Source: Ectocarpus siliculosus (taxonomy: Eukaryota; Sar; Phaeophyceae; Ectocarpales; Ectocarpaceae). From it: a stretch of DNA of 64,000 bases. The translations under genes were made by a program, and so were the position numbers. How positions within the stretch are numbered: position 1 is the stretch's first letter; each line of letters starts with the position of its first letter. The DNA lies in assembly GCA_000310025.1 (NCBI GenBank), contig FN649742.1, positions 5,387,247 through 5,451,246 on the forward strand. The letters run 5' to 3'. Under the pieces are notes generated by a model. That model ran no database searches, was not told where the DNA came from, and saw only the letters and a list, made by a program, of their open reading frames with translations. Below are positions 43,922 to 63,500 of this stretch, one piece after another.

Positions 43922-46098
43922 AGCGCTGCAAACAAATCTCGCACACACACCACGAACGAACATCGGAAGAGATCGAAAACAAGATCAAACATCTTGCCGA
44001 CACTGCCGAGCTCCCACGAAACACATGCCCGAAGCTCACCTTTTCTTCAGGCGATCGCAGGGGATCTGCGCCTGCCTCTACTTCCGGTAGATGAAAGAAA
44101 AGAAGGCAAGATACGCTGCCCTGCTGAGAGCTGCCCTCACCCAAAGGAGGAAGGGACAGCGTGACCAACGATAGCTGGACAGATCCTGCACAACAGAGGG
44201 TGTACAGCAGCAGCAGTGAACAAGACGTGATCAGAGCAGGAAGAGCACGGTGGACAGAGACAAGGCAAAGCATCCGGCTTTTCGAGGATTGAATGAAGTA
44301 GTATCCGGATGAGGCTCAGGTAGACAGAAGCCGAAGAGCGAAACCATGAACAGGTGTGGATAGATAGGTGTGTGTATAAACAGAAGCAACGAAGAGAAGA
44401 TATTGTCAACATCCGGCCGGTGGCGGGAGGCGCGGACGCGCCCACCTGTGCACGCACGTACCATCGAGACCTCAACCCTTCCAGACAAACACCCTCTCAC
44501 CTTTTGCGCGAGAAGCTGGCAGGAGTAACTCTCGACGGAACTCCGCGCGTGTGGGATGCGTGATCCACACAGACCCTTTCCCGAGCAACAGCAGCAGCAG
44601 CACAGAGAGCAGAGCGAGGTGATCAAGAACACCCACCGAGAGGGCTAGATCCAGTCACGGGAGCGAGTGGGGCACCCTTCCGTGGGTATATCTCGCAACG
44701 ATAGTTGCTGCTGAAGGGAGTCACGAAGGAGGGGTGGGAGGCAAGGTGCCCTCTCGGAAGGGATGTGTGCGCGCGCTCGACGCGTGGCTTGGATTGGATT
44801 TATCCCTTCTATAGGTAGGGCCAGAAAAATGAAAAACGACGCAATCTCATTGGTCAATCAACACATCCCAACATGAAAAACGACCCCGAGACCATGAAAA
44901 ACGACGGCGGCTGATTGGGCCAAAGCACCCGAATTGGGCCGCTGCCGCCGAGACACATGATGACACCCAACACAGACCACAACGGAAAGCACAACAGCCC
45001 TCCCACTCAGCAACCGCGGAGCCAGCGCTCCCCATGGGGCGAAATCAAGGGTCAAAGCCCAAGGATGGCGCACAAAAAGCGGGTCGGAAAACGACTGCGG
45101 AGAGGGAAAGATAGCTGCGCAGCAGAGGAATCAGGCGGACGGGTTGGCAAGGATGCTTTCCCGGAACCCGCAAGCCCAGCCATCATCAAAGCGGCCACGG
45201 GTGAGTGAAGACCAGAGTGGGGAGGGAAGCAGTGCGGGTGCTAGAAGCGCGTCATCCGCCGGCGATGTCGACGTTATTGGGGATTCTGGTGGTTCATCAA
45301 GCACGGCGGCACCAACCATCGGCGAGTCCACTCCACCTCCCGCCGGTACACAACAGCAGCACTGCTCACGGAGTAGAACCGCTCCGCGGAGCGTTTTTTT
45401 TTTTTTTTAGTTCCACGGAGCGGTGCGGAGCGGTTTTTTATATTTGAAAATATCACGGAGCGGTGCGGAGCGGTTTATCCGAGGGCCATAGTCTCACGGA
45501 GCGGAGCGTTTTTTTTTCTCATGTCACGGAGCGGTGTGGAGCGGTTAATCCGTAGTGCGGTTATTTTCACGGAGCGGTTTTGTATACTCCGTAGCATAAA
45601 CCGAGCAAAACCGTGTCCTTGAGGACGGTTATCCGTCAGAAAAAAACGTCAAAACCGCACGGATATCCGTACAAAATCGACGGAGTACCTGCAATTTCTT
45701 CAAAAACGTCGGGTGTCGTACACCGGAAACCGACTTTTCCACACGGTGTGCTGTGTTTGGAGGCCGCCGGTGACACCGTATGCGTCCTCGTCGCTAGGAC
45801 AGCCCAAACAGACCAAAAAGCTGTCAACTAATCAATTATTCAGAAAGGAACCGTTCCCCACATCGATACCTCCTCGACTCCTACGTTCCTGCAACACGTA
45901 CAACAGCAGACAAATCCTCACTTACTTGCCTCTCGTTGAAACTTGCCAGTACTAATACCTCCCGACTCATACGTTCCTGCAACACGTACAACAGCAGCTA
46001 ATTCCTCATATGCCTCTCGTTGAAACTTGCCAGTACTAGCACATGGGTAACACCAGGCGTCTTGTGTATTCATCCAACAACATACGCCGCTATGTCGC

Positions 46099-46911
46099 TC
46101 AGTCAGATTCGACCTCGACAACCACCTGCTTTCCCGCACAAGCGGCTTGGACAGATGCAGCTTTAGCCTTCCCAACAGACTGCGCTGCAAGCAGCTTCCC
46201 CAACTCATTGTCCAACTTCATGATCTCGGGAATAAGATGGGGGTTAGACCGGAGGAACATCACCATCTCGACACGGTCGGGCATCATCGCCTGCCGAAGG
46301 TTGTTGTAAACGAATCCCAGGCCCGAAAAGTCCCTCCCTGATTGGCAACTAGTTAGTGCTGTCAATGCAAAGGTACACGCGAGCAAGCATGGACAAGATG
46401 GGGCACATTGGCCACGAGCAGCAGCAGCCGTAGCGTATGCTTTGCCTCTCTCCTGCTTCGCTTTTGTAGATTTGTTGCTCGCTTTCATCGCCAACTCGTA
46501 CTGTGGAACATGCTTCGTCCGCAGATGGTCTAGCTGCGGACGCGTGCCGTTCTTGGCCACGTGCTTGTACATCCGGCCGCATTCCTTGCCGTCTTCATCG
46601 GCAACGATGCATCGCGTGTTCTTCCCGTTGTCCAACGGCTTGTTGAGCTTCTGGAAAAACGTCCAAACTCCCGACAAATTCCCGTGTGGTACGGTCTCTG
46701 CAACGTTGATGACGGTGCGTTTGACGCTACGCACCATGCTCAGGCGGGATTCCCCAGGTTGCGCCGCTGCTGATGCAGCAACAGCACCAGCAGAACCTCC
46801 GGCACCAGCACTAGCACCAGCACCAGCACCAGCACCACCAGGAGAGCGGTCGCCAGAAGGGCGGTCGCCAGGGTTGGATGTCGACTCCATCAGAGATAGG
46901 CAGACGTGCAC
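46099..46911 (-). CDS. BED-type zinc-finger protein of the palindromic element (left arm)
   Basis: 270 residues, or 263 from the second Met. The N-terminus is a Gly/Ala/Ser repeat (GAGAGAGAS), followed by a BED-like finger with GVWTFFQKLN, C-x8-C (CIVADEDGKEC) and LDHLRTKH. The W-FF, the cysteine pair and the H-x4-H give the family. BED fingers bind DNA and are common at the N-terminus of hAT transposases. Here the RNase H-like catalytic domain is absent; only a helical tail (LRSNPHLIPEIMKLDNELGKLL) follows. A 78-nt in-frame segment, mirror of 47902-47979, has GT/AG ends and a CTAAC branch-like site, so it may be a small intron. It is the mirror twin of the right-arm gene. Confidence 0.75.
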   Translation of the reverse strand: MHVCLSLMESTSNPGDRPSGDRSPGGAGAGAGASAGAGGSAGAVAASAAAQPGESRLSMVRSVKRTVINVAETVPHGNLSGVWTFFQKLNKPLDNGKNTRCIVADEDGKECGRMYKHVAKNGTRPQLDHLRTKHVPQYELAMKASNKSTKAKQERGKAYATAAAARGQCAPSCPCLLACTFALTALTSCQSGRDFSGLGFVYNNLRQAMMPDRVEMVMFLRSNPHLIPEIMKLDNELGKLLAAQSVGKAKAASVQAACAGKQVVVEVESD

Positions 46912-47405
46912 ACGAACTGATGTGCACGGAGTGTGTGTGGTTCGTGTGCACGGAGTGTGTGTCTGTGTGGCTGCTGTGAAAGTAGAACAGAAAAAAATGG
47001 AAAAATATCGTGACTCCGTAGGAAAAAAAACGTTACTCCGTGGTAAAACCGCGGCTGTATTGCGGTTTTATCCGTGCTTGTGTGACGGAGTAGGGCAAAC
47101 CGCTCCGTGAAAAAACCGCTTGTACGGATTGTTGGGAAGCCCCACGGAGCGGAGCGGAGCGGTTTATCCGAGCGCAGATTTCTCACGGAGCGGAGCGGTT
47201 TTTTTGTTCATGTCACGGAGCGGAGCGGTTTTTTCTCAAGGGAAAACCTCACGGAGCGGTGCGGAGCGGTTTAAACCGCTCCACTCCGTGGAAAAAAACC
47301 GCTCCGTGAGTAACCCTGATTTTTTTCTGTTCTACTTTCACAGCAGCCACACAGACACACACTCCGTGCACACGAACCACACACACTCCGTGCACATCAG
47401 TTCGT

Positions 47406-48218
47406 GTGCACGTCTGCCTATCTCTGATGGAGTCGACATCCAACCCTGGCGACCGCCCTTCTGGCGACCGCTCTCCTGGTGGTGCTGGTGCTGGTGCTGG
47501 TGCTAGTGCTGGTGCCGGAGGTTCTGCTGGTGCTGTTGCTGCATCAGCAGCGGCGCAACCTGGGGAATCCCGCCTGAGCATGGTGCGTAGCGTCAAACGC
47601 ACCGTCATCAACGTTGCAGAGACCGTACCACACGGGAATTTGTCGGGAGTTTGGACGTTTTTCCAGAAGCTCAACAAGCCGTTGGACAACGGGAAGAACA
47701 CGCGATGCATCGTTGCCGATGAAGACGGCAAGGAATGCGGCCGGATGTACAAGCACGTGGCCAAGAACGGCACGCGTCCGCAGCTAGACCATCTGCGGAC
47801 GAAGCATGTTCCACAGTACGAGTTGGCGATGAAAGCGAGCAACAAATCTACAAAAGCGAAGCAGGAGAGAGGCAAAGCATACGCTACGGCTGCTGCTGCT
47901 CGTGGCCAATGTGCCCCATCTTGTCCATGCTTGCTCGCGTGTACCTTTGCATTGACAGCACTAACTAGTTGCCAATCAGGGAGGGACTTTTCGGGCCTGG
48001 GATTCGTTTACAACAACCTTCGGCAGGCGATGATGCCCGACCGTGTCGAGATGGTGATGTTCCTCCGGTCTAACCCCCATCTTATTCCCGAGATCATGAA
48101 GTTGGACAATGAGTTGGGGAAGCTGCTTGCAGCGCAGTCTGTTGGGAAGGCTAAAGCTGCATCTGTCCAAGCCGCTTGTGCGGGAAAGCAGGTGGTTGTC
48201 GAGGTCGAATCTGACTGA
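47406..48218 (+). CDS. BED-type zinc-finger protein of the palindromic element (right arm)
   Basis: Predicted protein identical to that of 46099-46911, on the opposite strand; the two genes are divergent from the 320-bp spacer. Motifs as in the twin: GVWTFFQKLN, the cysteine pair and LDHLRTKH, then the helical tail and an acidic VVVEVESD end. The possible small intron is 47902-47979 (GTGGCC...CTAACTAGTTGCCAATCAG), whose removal or retention keeps the frame. Complete identity over 270 residues shows the inverted duplication is very recent or kept by gene conversion. The upstream CACACGAACCACACACACTC repeat is the common 5' flank. Confidence 0.75.
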   Translation: MHVCLSLMESTSNPGDRPSGDRSPGGAGAGAGASAGAGGSAGAVAASAAAQPGESRLSMVRSVKRTVINVAETVPHGNLSGVWTFFQKLNKPLDNGKNTRCIVADEDGKECGRMYKHVAKNGTRPQLDHLRTKHVPQYELAMKASNKSTKAKQERGKAYATAAAARGQCAPSCPCLLACTFALTALTSCQSGRDFSGLGFVYNNLRQAMMPDRVEMVMFLRSNPHLIPEIMKLDNELGKLLAAQSVGKAKAASVQAACAGKQVVVEVESD

Positions 48219-51200
48219 GCGACATAGCGGCGTATGTTTTTGGATGAATACACAAGACGCCTGGTGTTACCCATGTGCTAGTACTGGCAAGTTTCAACGA
48301 GAGGCACATGAGGAATTAGCTGCTGTTGTACGTGTTGCAGGAACGTATGAGTCCGGAGGTATTAGTACTGGCAAGTTTCAACGAGAGGCAAGTAAGTGAG
48401 GATTTGTCTGCTGTTGTACGTGTTGCAGGAACGTAGGAGTCGAGGAGGTATCGTTGTGGGGAACGGTTCCTTTCTGAATAATTGATTAGTTGACAGCTTT
48501 TTGGTCTGTTTGGGCTGTCCTAGCGACGAGGACGCATACGGTGTCACCGGCGGCCTCCAAACACAGCACACCGTGTGGAAAAGTCGTTTCCGGTGTACGA
48601 AACCCGACGTTTTTGAAGAAATTGCAGGTACTCCGTCGATTTTGTACGGATATCCGTGCGGTTTTGACGTTTTTTTCTGACGGATAACCGTCCTCAAGGA
48701 CACGGTTTTGCTCGGTTTATGCTACGGAGTATACAAAACCGCTCCGTGAAAATAACCGCACTACGGATTAACCGCTCCACACCGCTCCGTGACATGAGAA
48801 AAAAAAACGCTCCGCTCCGTGAGACTATTGCCCTCGGATAAACCGCTCCGCACCGCTCCGTGATATTTTCAAATATAAAAAACCGCTCCACACCGCTCCG
48901 TGGAACTAAAAAAAAAAAAAAACGCTCCGCGGAGCGGTTCTACTCCGTGAGTAACCCTGAGCAGCAGTCGCCTCCTGGCTTGGACGATGAGGGTGACCAC
49001 TCTCGGGTAGATGGAGAGGAAGTTCGGGCACCACCATTCCCAACCGTAGGGGAAGGATTCACCACAGCACCAACAGAGCTCGTAACAGCAACATCAACAG
49101 CAGCAGCAGCAGAAGCGGCAGTGGCGGCAGTACCCGTCCCGCAACCTCCCAGCAAAGGCAAGGGTGAAGACCGTGCTCATGAAGCCTCCCAAGTACGCGG
49201 GGGGGCAGCTCCAGCAGTGCTATCCTCTCAAATAGGTGAGGGGTTATTACCAGCATCAACAGCACTGGCAATGTCAGCGGCACCAGAGGCCGCAACAGGG
49301 GCAGCAACATCGGCACAACTCGCAGCAGTAGCAGCCGGAGTAGCCGCCGCCGCGGGGGCGGCAGCGGCGAGACCAGCAGCAAGCGGACGTCAAGACCACG
49401 TAGCGCGCCAACAAGGATGAGGAGGGGGGCTGAGCGGCCGTGGAGGAGGTAGAGGAGGGGGGATGAGCGGCCGTGGGGGAGGTGGGGGAGGGGGGCGACG
49501 GGCAGCAGCGCCAGGTCGTGGAGCAGCAGGAGGTGGGGCTGAAGGAGCCGCCGGTGGAGGGGCCGGCGATGATGATACTTCAACATCCAGTGCGCAGGAA
49601 CGCTTCTTTCAAGAAGTGAAGGACAAGATCGACCGGAGTATCACCCACGAGGGAGGTGGTGTGAAAGGCCGGTTCCCGTTTGACAACCCGCTCGTCCGTC
49701 CGAAGTGTGCCACTTTTCAACCATCACCAGGTACACCAGAGGAGTTGTTTTTTTTTGGAGGGGGGGGGGGGATAGCTCTGCCTATCTATCGTTCTTTTCG
49801 GATTAAATCGTCCAGGAAAAAAACATCCCGTCCCCCGGTAGGCTAACTTTTTTTTTCTCGCGTGCCTGATGTTCTGACATATCTACCTCAAATTTACGCG
49901 CGCCCAGGCCTACCGAAACTCGACCGGTTTTATCAGAAGGCAGTATTGGTATGGATACCGGAGTTCTTGTTCCCAGAGCTCCAGGCAGTTCCTTGTCCAG
50001 GATGTGGGGGCAAGGGCGCACCTGATGGCTGGAACCCTAAGGGGCCACGCCGGGTGTTCATGGAGCACGACGTGGCGTACATCATGGGGTTTCGGTAAGT
50101 TCAGCATGCGATGAAGAGTTTTCGCTCGATAAACTTGATCAGTCATGTTTTCGTGGCATTCGACGAATTCTAGGTTTCTTCTGGATATGAGTTGGTGTTG
50201 TGGTTTTCCGACGACATTGCTCGTGGTGCATGTTTTCTCCCATGCATGTGCAGGTACAAGTGTGCGAAGTGCGCGGAGTTCAACAAAGGCAAGCAGGAGG
50301 CGGAAAAGCGCGCAAGACGAGCTTCAACGCGTGGGATGCTGGGTGCCTCCGGCGTCTCCCCGAGTACATCTCCAAGGAGTTCCCTTTCCTTCTCACCAAG
50401 CGATCGGGCATTGAGATTCGCATGGTGGACCGGCTTGCAGATGATTTAGTGCATGGGAAGGGCTTCTCCGCTGCTGCCAAGAACATTTGTCAGGTGAATG
50501 TGCATTTTCTCATCTGCAGCGTCTTAAGATAACGGGTTGGTCTGGTCTTGGCTTTCCTAGCCTGCTCAAAACGTTTTCGGATGGTACCGCAAACGTTGCT
50601 GCGGGAAATGTCGGATCTCATAAGCGCCGACCCGTGCTACAACGAAAACGTGTCGCCCTCGTGATGCTGTTGCAGGCGCATACGACCAAGTTCATGGTGG
50701 ACCAGCTGAAGTACACCTCTCTGGTCAACTCACGGCGGACCAGCTCGGGCATCTTCCGCTCGGCCAACCTCGCCAAAACTCCGGAGAGGTTCGGCAGCTT
50801 TGATGACTCGACAAAGTACGGCGGTGCGGTCCCGTCGGAGCACTATTTGCGGGACGTGTGGCGGTTGTATTTCTCGAAACTCCCCGTGCTGGAGGTGGAT
50901 GGCGTGAGTTGGACCCTGGAGGAGTATCAGCACCGCTTGATGCAGCGCTGGGACGGAGAGGTTCTGGGTGGGGATGCTTCGTTTAAGTTTGCGAAGATCA
51001 TCCGGCTCGGGGCAAGAGCGGGCGAGGAGCGCTCAAGACCAGTGTACGGCTTGTTCACAGTGTTCAATGAATATGAGCAGGTGAATTTTTCTCCCGTCTC
51101 TGTTTCGTTCAATCATCTCCAAACCCTTTGTCTTGGTGCCATGTTTTCTGGAGCAATCACCCAAACATTATTCTCGTAGTATGTTGCGCTCATTCTCATG

Positions 51201-53442
51201 ACCCGAAAAACATTTCGTTGTGACACACGTGTGTTTTTATTTGAAGGTGGTCTGGCAGCGTCCGATGAAGACGGGTGCCTTGAGCGAGCTGGTGGAGGAG
51301 TTGAAGCTTTTTTTCATGCGATTCGTTCGCAATGGCTTCAAGGTTCCTACTCTGTGGAACACAGGTAATTTGCGAAATGATTGTAGACTTGCTTAGCTTT
51401 TCGAGGTTGTAGACCGGTGTCAGGCCTGCTATTTTCGCAGTGATTTTGCAGTATTGTCTCCTCAATCCTTTCCGGCCCCGTGGCGTGACGCGTGACGCAT
51501 AACTTTGTCAGATGACTGCTGTGATGACCGTCAACTGCTACAACGGGTATTTCGCGAGTTTGAGGAGGCAACGTGGATCAGTCTTTATCTGGAAGACGAG
51601 GTGGACGCCGGAGTTCAGTTGGAGCTCCTGCCATAGCTGGATCTGGAGTTCACCCCTGCCATCGTGTACGACCCGGAGGCGGTAGCCGCTGCCTGCGGCT
51701 CCCTCCGTCAGAGCATCACCCAAAATCGAGTGGAGGGAAAGATGGTGTGCGGAGCGGACGCAGAGTGGCAGTTTTCACCTCGTGGGCGGGAACCTGTAGC
51801 GACCTTCCAGATTGCGGCTTTGAGGGGGCCGTCGTTCCTCTTCCACCTGCAGAGAGGGAGCTCTGGTTTTACGAAGGAAACATTTCCCGCTCCCCTGAAG
51901 GCTCTTCTCGAGGACCCCAGCATCATCAAGGTGAGACAACAGCAACAGCACATGCGCGTGAGGTTTGAATGCGATAGATGTTGTATTCCATGTAGGTGCT
52001 GCTCTTGAAAGGTTGGTACGGCATATTTTAGCATGCGTCTTGTGAGCGTCTTCCTCATGATACAATTTTAACGCCGACTCGGCGACTCGATGTATCCTCG
52101 GTGCAGGCTGGTGTTGCCATCAACACGGATGCCACGCATATGCTCAACGACAATGGCGTGAAAATGGCGAGCACGGTGGACCTGCGTGTCCTCGCCGTTT
52201 CCAAGTTGGTGGTGACATCGTCTCGAACACTCGCCGGCTTGACGGCGTGCCTCCTGGGGAGGCAGCTGCTGAAAGACACCGTTCGATGCTCCCGTTGGGG
52301 GAGCCCTCGACTCTCCGATGAACAGCGAGACTACGCCATCAGGGACGCCGTTGCCTCGGCACTCTTGTACGAGGCCATCCACAAGAACAAGGACCCGATC
52401 ACGTCCGTGCCTTCTTCACCGTTCGACCCGGCTATCGGCTTGAAGGTGAGCGCCTTCGCATTGTGCTATCGGCCGTACTTTGATGTTGACCGACCACAAA
52501 AGATCATGGCAGGTTCCAAATTTGTGCTCAAACCCAAGCAACAACGCTTGTCCTCGTTATTTTGCCCTCTGCGCGTACTACAGGTGCGCCTCTACAACGC
52601 GAGCCATTCCGCCTGCGTGGCGGTAGGTCACGTGGTGTCCGACGCCACCGCGGAGGCCGCCCTTCGTCACTGGCAAAGTTCTGTGTCTGTGTTCTGCGGC
52701 AGGGGCGGCGGGGGCGACGGGGGCGGCGGGGGCGGCGCGGGCGGCGTTGCCGCAGTTCAGGGCCTGCACCGAATGCGGACACCACAAGGGTGCATACCCT
52801 GCTGAACACCCTGGGAATCGCCGTGGACATAAGGCGAAAGGTTCAGCGCCCCAGCCCGACGTTGAACCGGCGAAAAAATGTTCAGTGGACCAGAGCTTGC
52901 GGCGCCCAGAGTCGGACAAAGTCTGGAACCCGAAGCAAAGAAAGAGGACGTTTTTGCCCTGCCCGTGCGATGTATGCAAGAGCTCATACGCACACGTGGA
53001 GGATGGTGATGGTTAGCCTGTACTGCCGGGTCGAGAAGAGCTGGACACATTACAAAAAATGTAAATATTTGCCTACCGGTTCGAAAGGCCGTTCGGTCAG
53101 TTAAAAGTGCACTGCTTGTGCGGCAGTCGCCCAGAATTTTGGATGGTGAAGGAAATTACAAACGGCCCACGATTGAGGCAGCAGATACAGCACCACGGCT
53201 GCCCAGGCGATGTGTGTGTGTGTGTGGTGTGTTTTTTTTTTTCCGGCACCATCTGCCGTCTTTCAACAACGATATTGAGTTGGACGGTATGCTAGACGTG
53301 CCTGAGAATGCAGTGCAAGAAACCGTTTCTAAATCGGCTCACAGTTCGAGGAGAAAAGCCTACAAACAGCAGTGGATCAGAGGTGTGTCCGGAAAAAAAA
53401 AAAAAAACAGCCAAACTCTGTGCAAACGCCTCCAAACATTTT

Positions 53443-53515
53443 TTCGCGCTTCGCGCGATTTTTTATTTATTACGTCCCCGGCTAGCCCTACCTATGGGCC
53501 CTGAGCCAGAATTGT
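53443..53515 (+). repeat. Repeat end shared with 33.7 kb
   Basis: TTCGCGCTTCGCGCGA, AT-rich tract, GCCCTACCTATGGGCC and CTGAGCCAG. Its 11-mer GCCCTACCTAT is inverted at 44811-44821, left of the exonuclease pseudogene. Confidence 0.55.
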
Positions 53516-60500: not shown

Positions 60501-63500
60501 AAAAAAATACGGTTGTTGCCGTAGCAAAGGCGTGTTAATTTTGAGGCCAAATCTGTCTAACAAAGGCACTTTGCGTTGGAGAAAAAGGGCGAGAAAATCG
60601 ACGTGCCTGCCACGTGATGCGTAATGCACGAAAATCACAAATCACAGACTGAGGCTACGACGCACGCGCTGTGTCATCAACACCATGAACATGATCAAGA
60701 GCGTGCATCCACGGCGAAGAAACGCAACAATAGCAGCTCGCTGTCGTTCACCCTAGCCCTTCCATCCGCGGCAGAAGCGACGGCAGCGCCTGAGCCTCGT
60801 AGAGCTCTCACTGACTCAACTTACCTAGAGGACGGCGTAAAGAACAGCTTGGGCTCCATCCGCGGCACCTCTCCCAGGTACACCCCGTCCTTAGCCAGGA
60901 CTGCCATCTCGCACGAGTCTTCCGGGGCTTCGATCGAGATGGCGTGGTTGTCGCCGTGTCCCGCGAAGGCCATTCGCAATCGCACCCACTCGCCCGTGGT
61001 CATCTGGATCGTCGGCATCACTTGTCCGTTGACGAGGAAGTGGCTGCAGCGAGAAAGGAAAAGGAGGAGCGGGAGCACACGGGGGCGCGATGGATCTATC
61101 AGTGGATCGAATAGGCTTAAACAGGCTCAAAACAAGTCCAGTGTCAAGCAGGTTCCCCCCCCCCCATCCCTCACTCGCTACTGCTGTAAATAATAAATAA
61201 TTCCAACGCATACAATACATGCCTTCGATTGGGCGGTTATATCGAACGGCAAATAGTGTACAATTAGGCTCTATGGAAGTGTGTGAATATTTATTTGCCA
61301 GTAACCGGGAGGCGGTTCACAAGCAGTAGAGCCGTCTTGTTTTCACTGTATACATGTATACATACATAGTCTGCACCACCAACCAACCCCAACCCAGCAG
61401 ACCAGCAGACAACACCAACATTTCCACGCACAAAACTGGCAAGGCAACGTGACTCTGTTCGTGGACGACACGAGATGCCATGTTTCCGCGGTGGTGGCAC
61501 TCTCTTTCACTACATGATGGTATGGGTTTAGTCACCATTCTTCTCTTTACCGTATTCTGGTTTGCTCCGTGACCACCAACATTACTTAACTTCACTTGCA
61601 AGGCTACAGGAAAGGAGGTACTACAGCTGTACATAGGCCACGACAGCTTCCACAACAAAAATGAAAAGGCGGCAGGCCCAGCACCAGCACAGCGGGAAAA
61701 AAAGGACGACCAGTACAACCGCGCTTTCCTTTGCCGTGCTTTCCCTTGCTTACGTTTGAGCAGCCGTGGTCGAGTAGAGCTCATCGCCGCTAGCATCGCT
61801 GTCCGCAGTGCTCAGCTCCGGGTTCATCTCCTGGATCACCACCACGAGCTCTGGCATGTTGGCGATCTGGTCGGGGATGCCGTGCACGTCAACCCTGTCC
61901 TCGACCACCAATGTCCCCATGGCGCCACCGCCCATCTGCAGAGAGGTTGAGCCGTGGTGGTGGGGGTGGTACCAGAAAGTCCCGCCAGCGTGGTCGCACG
62001 GGATGGTGTACACGACTGAGGGAAGAGCACAAGCACAAGCGGTACAGTATGGTACGGTACGGTACGGTACGGAGAAGGGAAGAGGAGGCACGGGCAAGAC
62101 GACAAAACGAGGGACGAGGAAAAGAGTGGTATTATATAGCAGGTCGCCGAGAGATGGTGGAGCGGGCAAGGCAGCACCTAGGTGACTCGACCGCGATGAG
62201 GGTGGAGGAGGGCGGCATCAAGTCATGGTCATGGGGCCATGGAGCGTTGACGAACTACGCATCCGTTGCTCCGCCCTCCCCCAAATATCTCGATTCGCCG
62301 CTCTAGCATCCTTGCTATAGATAGCTTAGCCTTGCTTGTCCGTCCTCACATGTGTGGCTCTCTCCCGGGGTGATCTCCACGTACAGGACGTCATCGGCGG
62401 GGCTTTCTCCGGAGATGTGCAGGCCGTGCGTGTGGAGGTTGGTAGTGTTGGGGTCTTTCATCGTGTTCCACTCGCCGCCGGGGTTGAGGGGCCCGAGGTT
62501 GTTGGTGTACGTAAGCTCGTATGTCTGGCAGGCCTCCATGCGAATCGTGGGGCCTGGGATCTGCGGTGGTTGACACATGCGGCGTGATTGCAACATAGAA
62601 ACGTTGGGCACGGCGGGACTAATTGGTGAGACATGCTTTAGTAGGGCCTGCGACGACGAAACTCTTTGCAGAATCAGCAGTACCCCCAGTCTCCGACCTG
62701 GGACACCTCAATACCTTCACCTTCACGAGACACCCAAAAACAACTTGCCGCGTTACAAGCACCGGGCAGCAGACTCCTTCACACCACACAACCCGACATC
62801 CCGAGCACCACCTACCCCCCCCCCCCCACCACCACCACCAGACCAAAAAACGTACCTGGCCGTTGAAGGCGCGCGTGGTCGTCACCCCCCAGAAGTTGTC
62901 CATCGTCACCGCCCCCATCTCGATCTCCCCCGTAAACACGCCCGTAGCGTCGTTCAACTCCCACTCCAGCTCCACCGGCGACTCGAGAGCGTCTCCGACG
63001 GGAGGGGCCACGGGTGCGGTGGTGATGGCGGCGGCTACCGTGGCGGCCGCCGATGGCGCTGGGGTAGGTGCCGGGGCCGCCACTTCGCCTGCCAGGACCT
63101 CAAAAGACTTCACGGCAGTCTCGTCCTGAGGAAAACAAACCACAGGAGGGAGGGGGGGGGGTAAGGGTATCATAGGTACGAGGGTTGTTGGCTTCAGCGC
63201 ACGTTTGAAGTAACGAAACCGTGGTACAGTACAAGTATCAATCTTTGTGTGCATGCTGGCACTGGCACTGCACGGCAGTGCGATCGAGTGTCAATCTTAC
63301 GGGCCGACAAGAAAGCATTCGTCCTTAGCTTCCGTCCACTTTGACAGTCTAAATCAGCCCACATATTCTTAGTGGCCTAGCGGTGGAACTGTAGGCGGGG
63401 GTCTGTGAGGGGTTCAAACACGCTTCCCGCCATAGCAATAATGCACCATGTATAACACAGACGCAGTGCGCTCTCGGCAGCGTGTAAATAGATGTCAGCT

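Follow-up and report, generated by a model that had tools for sequence, protein, structure and literature searches.

A near-palindrome in Ectocarpus siliculosus interpreted as a hAT transposon joined to an inverted, truncated second copy

Introduction

Short inverted termini starting with CAGGG are typical of the hAT superfamily of transposons, and the nested "double Ds" of maize has truncated forms. The double Ds is mentioned in PMC3260210, in the available part of which nested Ds elements are called rarer in maize B73 and no chromosome-breaking double Ds is said to have been detected there. For sister-chromatid transposition in maize, flanking inverted duplications and deletions have been reported (PMC3744419), and Ds footprints are described as following a complement-base and palindromic-nucleotide rule (PMC5873905, PMC1978519). 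For Ectocarpus a transposon survey (Genome Biol 2025; PMC12477816) contains the row "DNA/hAT 4, 128, 13, 0.05%", which we take to give families, copies, intact copies, and share of the genome; the term "palindrom" has 0 occurrences in its text. Among the papers listed by the literature search for nested or self-inserted hAT elements, none describes, by its title or the start of its abstract, a structure of the kind reported here.

The present analysis concerns a near-palindrome of 3.6 kb located inside an open frame of the window, that is, a stretch of 64,000 nucleotides of Ectocarpus siliculosus (assembly GCA_000310025.1, contig FN649742.1, positions 5,387,247 to 5,451,246 of the forward strand), in which all positions below are counted. 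The flanks of the near-palindrome are AGCAGCAC (45355-45362) and AGCAGCAG (48960-48967), exactly as given in a preliminary description of the locus made from the letters alone, which had interpreted it as a single palindromic transposon, inserted into an exon with the help of a hAT-type transposase.

Insertion Site and Interrupted Unit

The genome search found at least four other copies of the interrupted unit in the same genome (L024, L025, L026, and L027, the best-scoring candidates of the search). In three of the four (L024, L025, and L026) the empty site is directly visible, the flanks being joined via a single AGCAGCAG, and the frame ...GTQQQQSPPG... crosses it without a stop codon in each of them, while L027 diverges ahead of the insertion site and its match to the window ends at 45226. 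Because the three empty-site copies have AGCAGCAG only once, the target is 8 bp long, and insertion with an 8-bp target is therefore established without other strains.

These paralogues bear out much of what had been proposed for the target. The continuous joined frame expected after removal of the element together with one target copy is real, all 3 site-spanning copies agree both in this frame and in target length, and the view that the insertion is later than the coding sequence is supported. The codon boundaries, after 45362 and before 48968, were also placed correctly. The proposal that both frames end exactly at the target copies is true of the codon phase only, as the left frame stays open inside the element as far as 45410, and the right frame has its start within the element, at 48842; the phase match on both sides is by our arithmetic about a 1-in-9 coincidence. 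Likewise, of the two 8-bp target copies only the right one is unaltered, whereas the left copy has one changed base and adjoins a terminus without 8 nt. Compared with the remaining targets of the hAT family, AGCAGCAG has a lower A/T content.

A host-gene exon is not supported. Since the repeated unit is bounded by its own inverted ends and 8-bp duplications, with the same borders in three other copies, it is transposon-like, and this comparison indicates that the interrupted ORF belongs to another transposon-like unit. The duplications are TGCTTGCC in L025, GAATAAAA in L026, and an A-run in L024; in the other copies the left inverted end reads GGGACAGGGCCCATAGGTAGGGC, and the right end is its inverted match. 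The window copy has kept its right inverted end whole and is short of the outermost 12 bp at the left (GGGACAGGGCCC). It has also lost 1 nt at about 45106, a deletion seen in none of the 3 paralogues compared, and its frame is thereby shifted upstream of the insertion. The unit encodes a 3'-5' exonuclease domain (DNA_pol_A_exo1, PF01612, E 2.2e-6, window positions 52032-52802). The match to DUF6729, for which the literature search found no papers, reached only E 0.11, below the cut-off, and all Pfam matches other than PF05699 and PF01612 were below the cut-offs and were set aside. Elsewhere in the window, the minus-strand frame at 62315-62707 and its neighbouring minus-strand frames show by eye His-rich motifs resembling those of multicopper oxidases.

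Structure of the Palindrome

Five further full-length relatives of about 1.93–1.97 kb were found by the genome search, each equivalent to the left arm extended by the 320-bp middle, together with a full-length relative of 6,459 bp (L034, on C16), from which the short form differs by an internal deletion of about 4.5 kb. Because the full-length relatives match the left arm together with the 320-bp middle, the alignment indicates that the "palindrome" is a nearly complete, non-autonomous hAT element of about 1.95 kb (copy A) followed by an inverted and shorter second copy (B), in place of the single palindromic transposon supposed before. The features of this composite are collected in Table 1.

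Table 1. Positions of the composite and of the unit that it interrupts, in window coordinates.
Feature	Position	Strand	Basis
Repeated, transposon-like unit interrupted by the hAT composite	44811..53507	+	Borders agree with L024-L026, and at the left with L027 too
Left target copy AGCAGCA, 8th base (G) missing	45355..45361	+	Empty sites AGCAGCAG in L024-L026
Putative repair filler CTG	45362..45364	+	Complement of lost G plus 2 palindromic nucleotides (by-eye comparison)
Copy A, non-autonomous hAT element	45365..47318	+	Right terminus intact; aligned with 5 complete monomers
Open frame of A, 263 codons from ATG	46099..46890	-	Position of the ATG deduced by symmetry with the right arm
Right terminus CCGTGAGTAACCCTG of A, abutting B	47304..47318	+	
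Copy B, inverted, right end shortened by 320 bp	47319..48959	-	
ATTTTTTT, inferred 8-bp target in B for the right end of A	47319..47326	+	Native site sequence in other copies
Open frame of B, 263 codons, mirror of the frame of A	47427..48218	+	
Intact outer terminus of B, CCGTGAGTAACCCTG	48945..48959	+	
Right target copy AGCAGCAG, unaltered	48960..48967	+	Sequence and empty sites

The two arms (45365-46998 and 47319-48952) are 99.5% identical, with 7 substitutions and a single 1-nt indel between them. At its left terminus copy A has lost the initial 8 nt (CAGGGTTA), the left terminus of B is intact and right-facing, and the missing part of B begins where the right terminus of A meets it. The sequence ATTTTTTT at this junction fits the A/T-rich targets of the hAT family; its second copy, on the left side, is absent. 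It is single in all 5 short copies, and full-length L034 has ATTTTTTTATTTTTTT at the site corresponding to 46990-46998. The composite is thus visibly asymmetrical, with two right-facing termini in the window and no left-facing terminus there within two substitutions, where a symmetrical left end would read CAGGGTTACTCAC. Because a complete left terminus is lacking, the composite is probably immobile. L034 carries an 8-bp duplication exactly where A joined B, possibly as the footprint of an earlier insertion there or as a result of slippage.

The assignment to hAT is supported by the 8-bp target and by the 452-aa ORF of L034, which contains the hAT dimerisation domain (Pfam PF05699, E 1.2e-10), so that the hAT-type transposase of the preliminary description is upheld; the same domain occurs in 7 of 7 homologues among the matches listed. 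As regards the RNase H-like catalytic fold with DDE, the structure model of the transposase ORF is of low confidence (mean pLDDT 46.2), and the PDB sequence search with it gave two matches, neither of them relevant (E 0.19 and 0.99). The pattern C..C..H..H, as in a BED zinc finger, is visible by eye in the frame, and scanning of 2 frames with Pfam gave no BED match. The right-arm frame has no Pfam match; the frame of A appears by eye to be a remnant of the N- and C-terminal parts of the transposase across the internal deletion.

The exact terminus CAGGGTTACTCACGGAG has 16 matches in the genome, of which 12 are both ends of 6 complete elements, 2 lie in the window, and 2 are single; that it stands at both ends of 6/6 complete elements follows from the definition of completeness by the presence of both ends. 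The 8-bp target copies are identical in three of these elements (CAAAATAG, GAAATTTC, and AAATTTTC), agree at 7/8 positions in one, and in the remaining 2 of the 6 are identical only with a 2-nt shift inside an A-run. Allowing two mismatches brought the terminus search to background level (201 matches versus 199 for the reversed-pattern control), and no counts were drawn from it; 11 regions, some with two mismatches, were hand-picked from this search, and no count rests on them. As a side observation, a related element of 443–444 bp occurs at C2:8847705-8848148 (L060) and C6:3470695-3471137 (L061), with clean GAAACCAC duplications and a third, internal right-facing terminus at position 241; since flanking bases are seen to be common to both copies, they probably represent one insertion in a duplicated segment.

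The left junction reads AGCAGCA-CTG-CTCACGG, where the family terminus in the form CAGGGTTACTCACGG would be expected after AGCAGCAG. Thus 8 terminal nucleotides and the last target base have been lost, and CTG stands in their place. Because the target copy has one changed base and the terminus is without 8 nt, the left end is to be read as a repaired junction, matching the reported hairpin-repair footprint of Ac/Ds, and not as a transposon end (for Hermes and Kat1 see PMC4763223); an intact left end is not supported. On the hairpin reading the lost G would be represented by its complement C, followed by the palindromic TG(CT), a fit that is complete but short, and the CT at 45365-45366 fits the hairpin strand and the element alike. 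A single simple deletion was considered as the source of this junction and rejected, for it leaves CTG over.

Common Source of the Two Copies

Copies A and B visibly share 8 substitutions which are absent from all five other aligned monomers (1521 gap-free columns; gapped columns are outside the counts, and the 6.46-kb L034 on C16 was left out of the arm alignment owing to its length). In the gapped columns the two copies have one more substitution in common, CTCATG near 45519, as well as a 4-nt insertion, ACTT, at 45920. The differences between A and B are each private to one arm, with 3 substitutions in A and 4 substitutions and 1 deletion in B; the private sites lie at 45426, 45487, 45715, 45863, 45963, 46010, and 46078. 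Because the shared variants are absent from the five other aligned copies, it can be concluded from this alignment that A and B derive from one source copy.

All 7 substitutions and the 1-nt indel that separate the arms lie in their outer 715 bp, while the inner 918 bp (46081-46998 versus 47319-48236) are identical; the stem is perfect over its central 920 bp. In the outer part A differs from B by 0.98% and from the other copies by 1.73–2.67%; in the inner part the corresponding values are 0/918 and 1.32–2.52%. The confinement of 7/7 private substitutions to 715 of 1633 bp has by our arithmetic a probability of about 0.003, and the permutation for private and shared sites lying apart gave 0.0003, a value which overstates the effect, as two shared derived changes of the outer part were omitted from it. 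The inner part without A-B differences suggests later exchange between the arms, and arm-to-arm gene conversion has probably acted there. Most of the sequence that speaks for a common origin of A and B may therefore itself have been converted, but two of their shared derived changes do lie in the outer part.

The left flank of the window unit differs from the three paralogues at 9–11 of 550 bases, which exceeds the A-B difference in the outer arms and is consistent with the hAT composite being the younger event, if rates are equal. Since the inner part looks converted, any dating from arm identity is only rough.

Origin of the Composite

The best explanation, which we consider probable, is that a hAT element began to transpose into its own (sister) copy and the event was aborted, with a result comparable with the truncated "double Ds". 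An internally deleted derivative of the 6.46-kb hAT type would first have entered the ORF of another transposon, duplicating 8 bp of target (AGCAGCAG) there. At some later time, after replication, hAT transposase would have excised a copy of the same element, most simply on the sister chromatid, and the excised right end would have joined the other copy, in inverted orientation, at an A/T-rich site, while the left end would have failed to insert, lost 8 nt, and been sealed by end joining to the donor site, whose left flank was capped by a hairpin. Such a presumably single event would give nearly the whole of A and an inverted B, 320 bp short, with a scar at the left and a clean right end. Against it count the brevity of the diagnostic filler, only three bases, which would be expected by chance about 1 time in 64, the probable conversion between the arms, the poor structure model of the L034 transposase ORF with its lack of a relevant PDB match, and the A/T content of AGCAGCAG, lower than in the other family targets.

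A route in two steps, by which a full double element formed first and the left part of the outer copy was deleted afterwards, yields the same junction letters, and nested Ds elements are reported to gain chromosome-breaking properties (PMC3260210). After a transposase cut at the right end of the outer copy, the deletion would have had to extend over 320 bp of that copy and over the 8-bp target copy, and to reach 8 nt into A; this requires one more event, and A and B would be expected to differ as other copies do unless both came from the same copy, whereas private variants are in fact shared, and we regard this route as unlikely. It seems less likely still that the composite, with its two left-type ends, arose at another locus and was carried into the ORF as one unit, its left end being cut and badly repaired later. 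The related 443–444-bp element, flanked with its third internal terminus as a unit by clean GAAACCAC, offers a parallel for such movement, and Mu killer of maize likewise has two same-type ends (PMC3440606); however, among the 16 exact genome ends there is no other same-facing pair within a few kb, nor is there a second composite copy among the genome matches listed, the counts of which are lower bounds.

Long palindromes are hard to assemble, and the structure might be suspected to stem from a read folded back on itself or from two element copies wrongly put together in the assembly. This is very improbable, given that the two flanks differ yet fit one empty site, that the arms differ by 7 substitutions and 1 indel, and that the inner junction falls exactly at a transposon terminus. 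The least credible reading is a transposon family of the fold-back type, or one palindromic by nature, whose two long arms are identical; only the appearance in the window would speak for such a family, and it was rejected because 6/6 complete elements with exact ends are non-palindromic monomers. With the aborted transposition as the preferred account, the locus adds a further case to a type of accident already known and does not represent a novel sort of transposon.

Possible Silencing and Significance

By analogy the composite might act as a natural Mu killer-like locus, in which a hairpin RNA of about 1.6 kb would give small RNAs that, with a brown-algal Argonaute, silence the whole hAT family; we hold this for a long shot. 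The hairpin RNA could arise by read-through from the promoter of the interrupted transposon or from divergent promoters of the element itself, and exchange between the arms would keep its stem near-perfect. Domain matches to Argonaute (PF02171), RNase III (PF00636), and RdRP (PF05183) are present in the genome, and of the 1614 21-mers of the arm 923–1125 are found in each of six complete hAT copies. In Ectocarpus about 15% of RISC-associated small RNAs are reported to come from transposons, and, counting against silencing by the composite, few transposons are reported with altered expression in ago mutants (both PMC12867755). Also against it, the silencing-linked transcripts of Mu killer are described as short antisense RNAs and not as a read-through hairpin (PMC3440606). 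If silencing did occur, a transposition accident would have become a trap for its own hAT family, and the composite offers a concrete locus at which a Mu killer-type origin of transposon silencing might be sought in Ectocarpus.

On the preferred account of aborted transposition, the locus would preserve both halves of the aborted event base by base, that is, the completed end and the failed, hairpin-repaired end. Found in a lineage distant from plants and animals, it suggests that the same flank-hairpin chemistry works there.

Comparison with Known Systems

The closest counterpart of the composite is the nested "double Ds" of the Ac/Ds system, with which it shares an element inverted inside an identical copy and meeting that copy with an exact terminus, the presence of non-autonomous copies with internal deletions, targets of 8 bp, and a scar of the complement-base and P-nucleotide type. 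It differs in its occurrence in a brown alga, in the loss of one end of the outer copy and of one terminus, and in being known from sequence alone; with 320 bp of B and the left copy of ATTTTTTT missing, the full double-Ds arrangement is absent and only its truncated form is present. The termini of the window element differ from those of Ds. In Mu killer of maize, too, a transposon with an internal deletion is duplicated in inverted orientation and has two same-type ends, adjoining a gene able to read through it; in distinction from the present composite Mu killer belongs to Mutator and not to hAT, its silencing activity was shown, and its centre could not be sequenced (PMC3440606). In the same genus as the window element are the Ectocarpus hAT families of the recent survey (PMC12477816).
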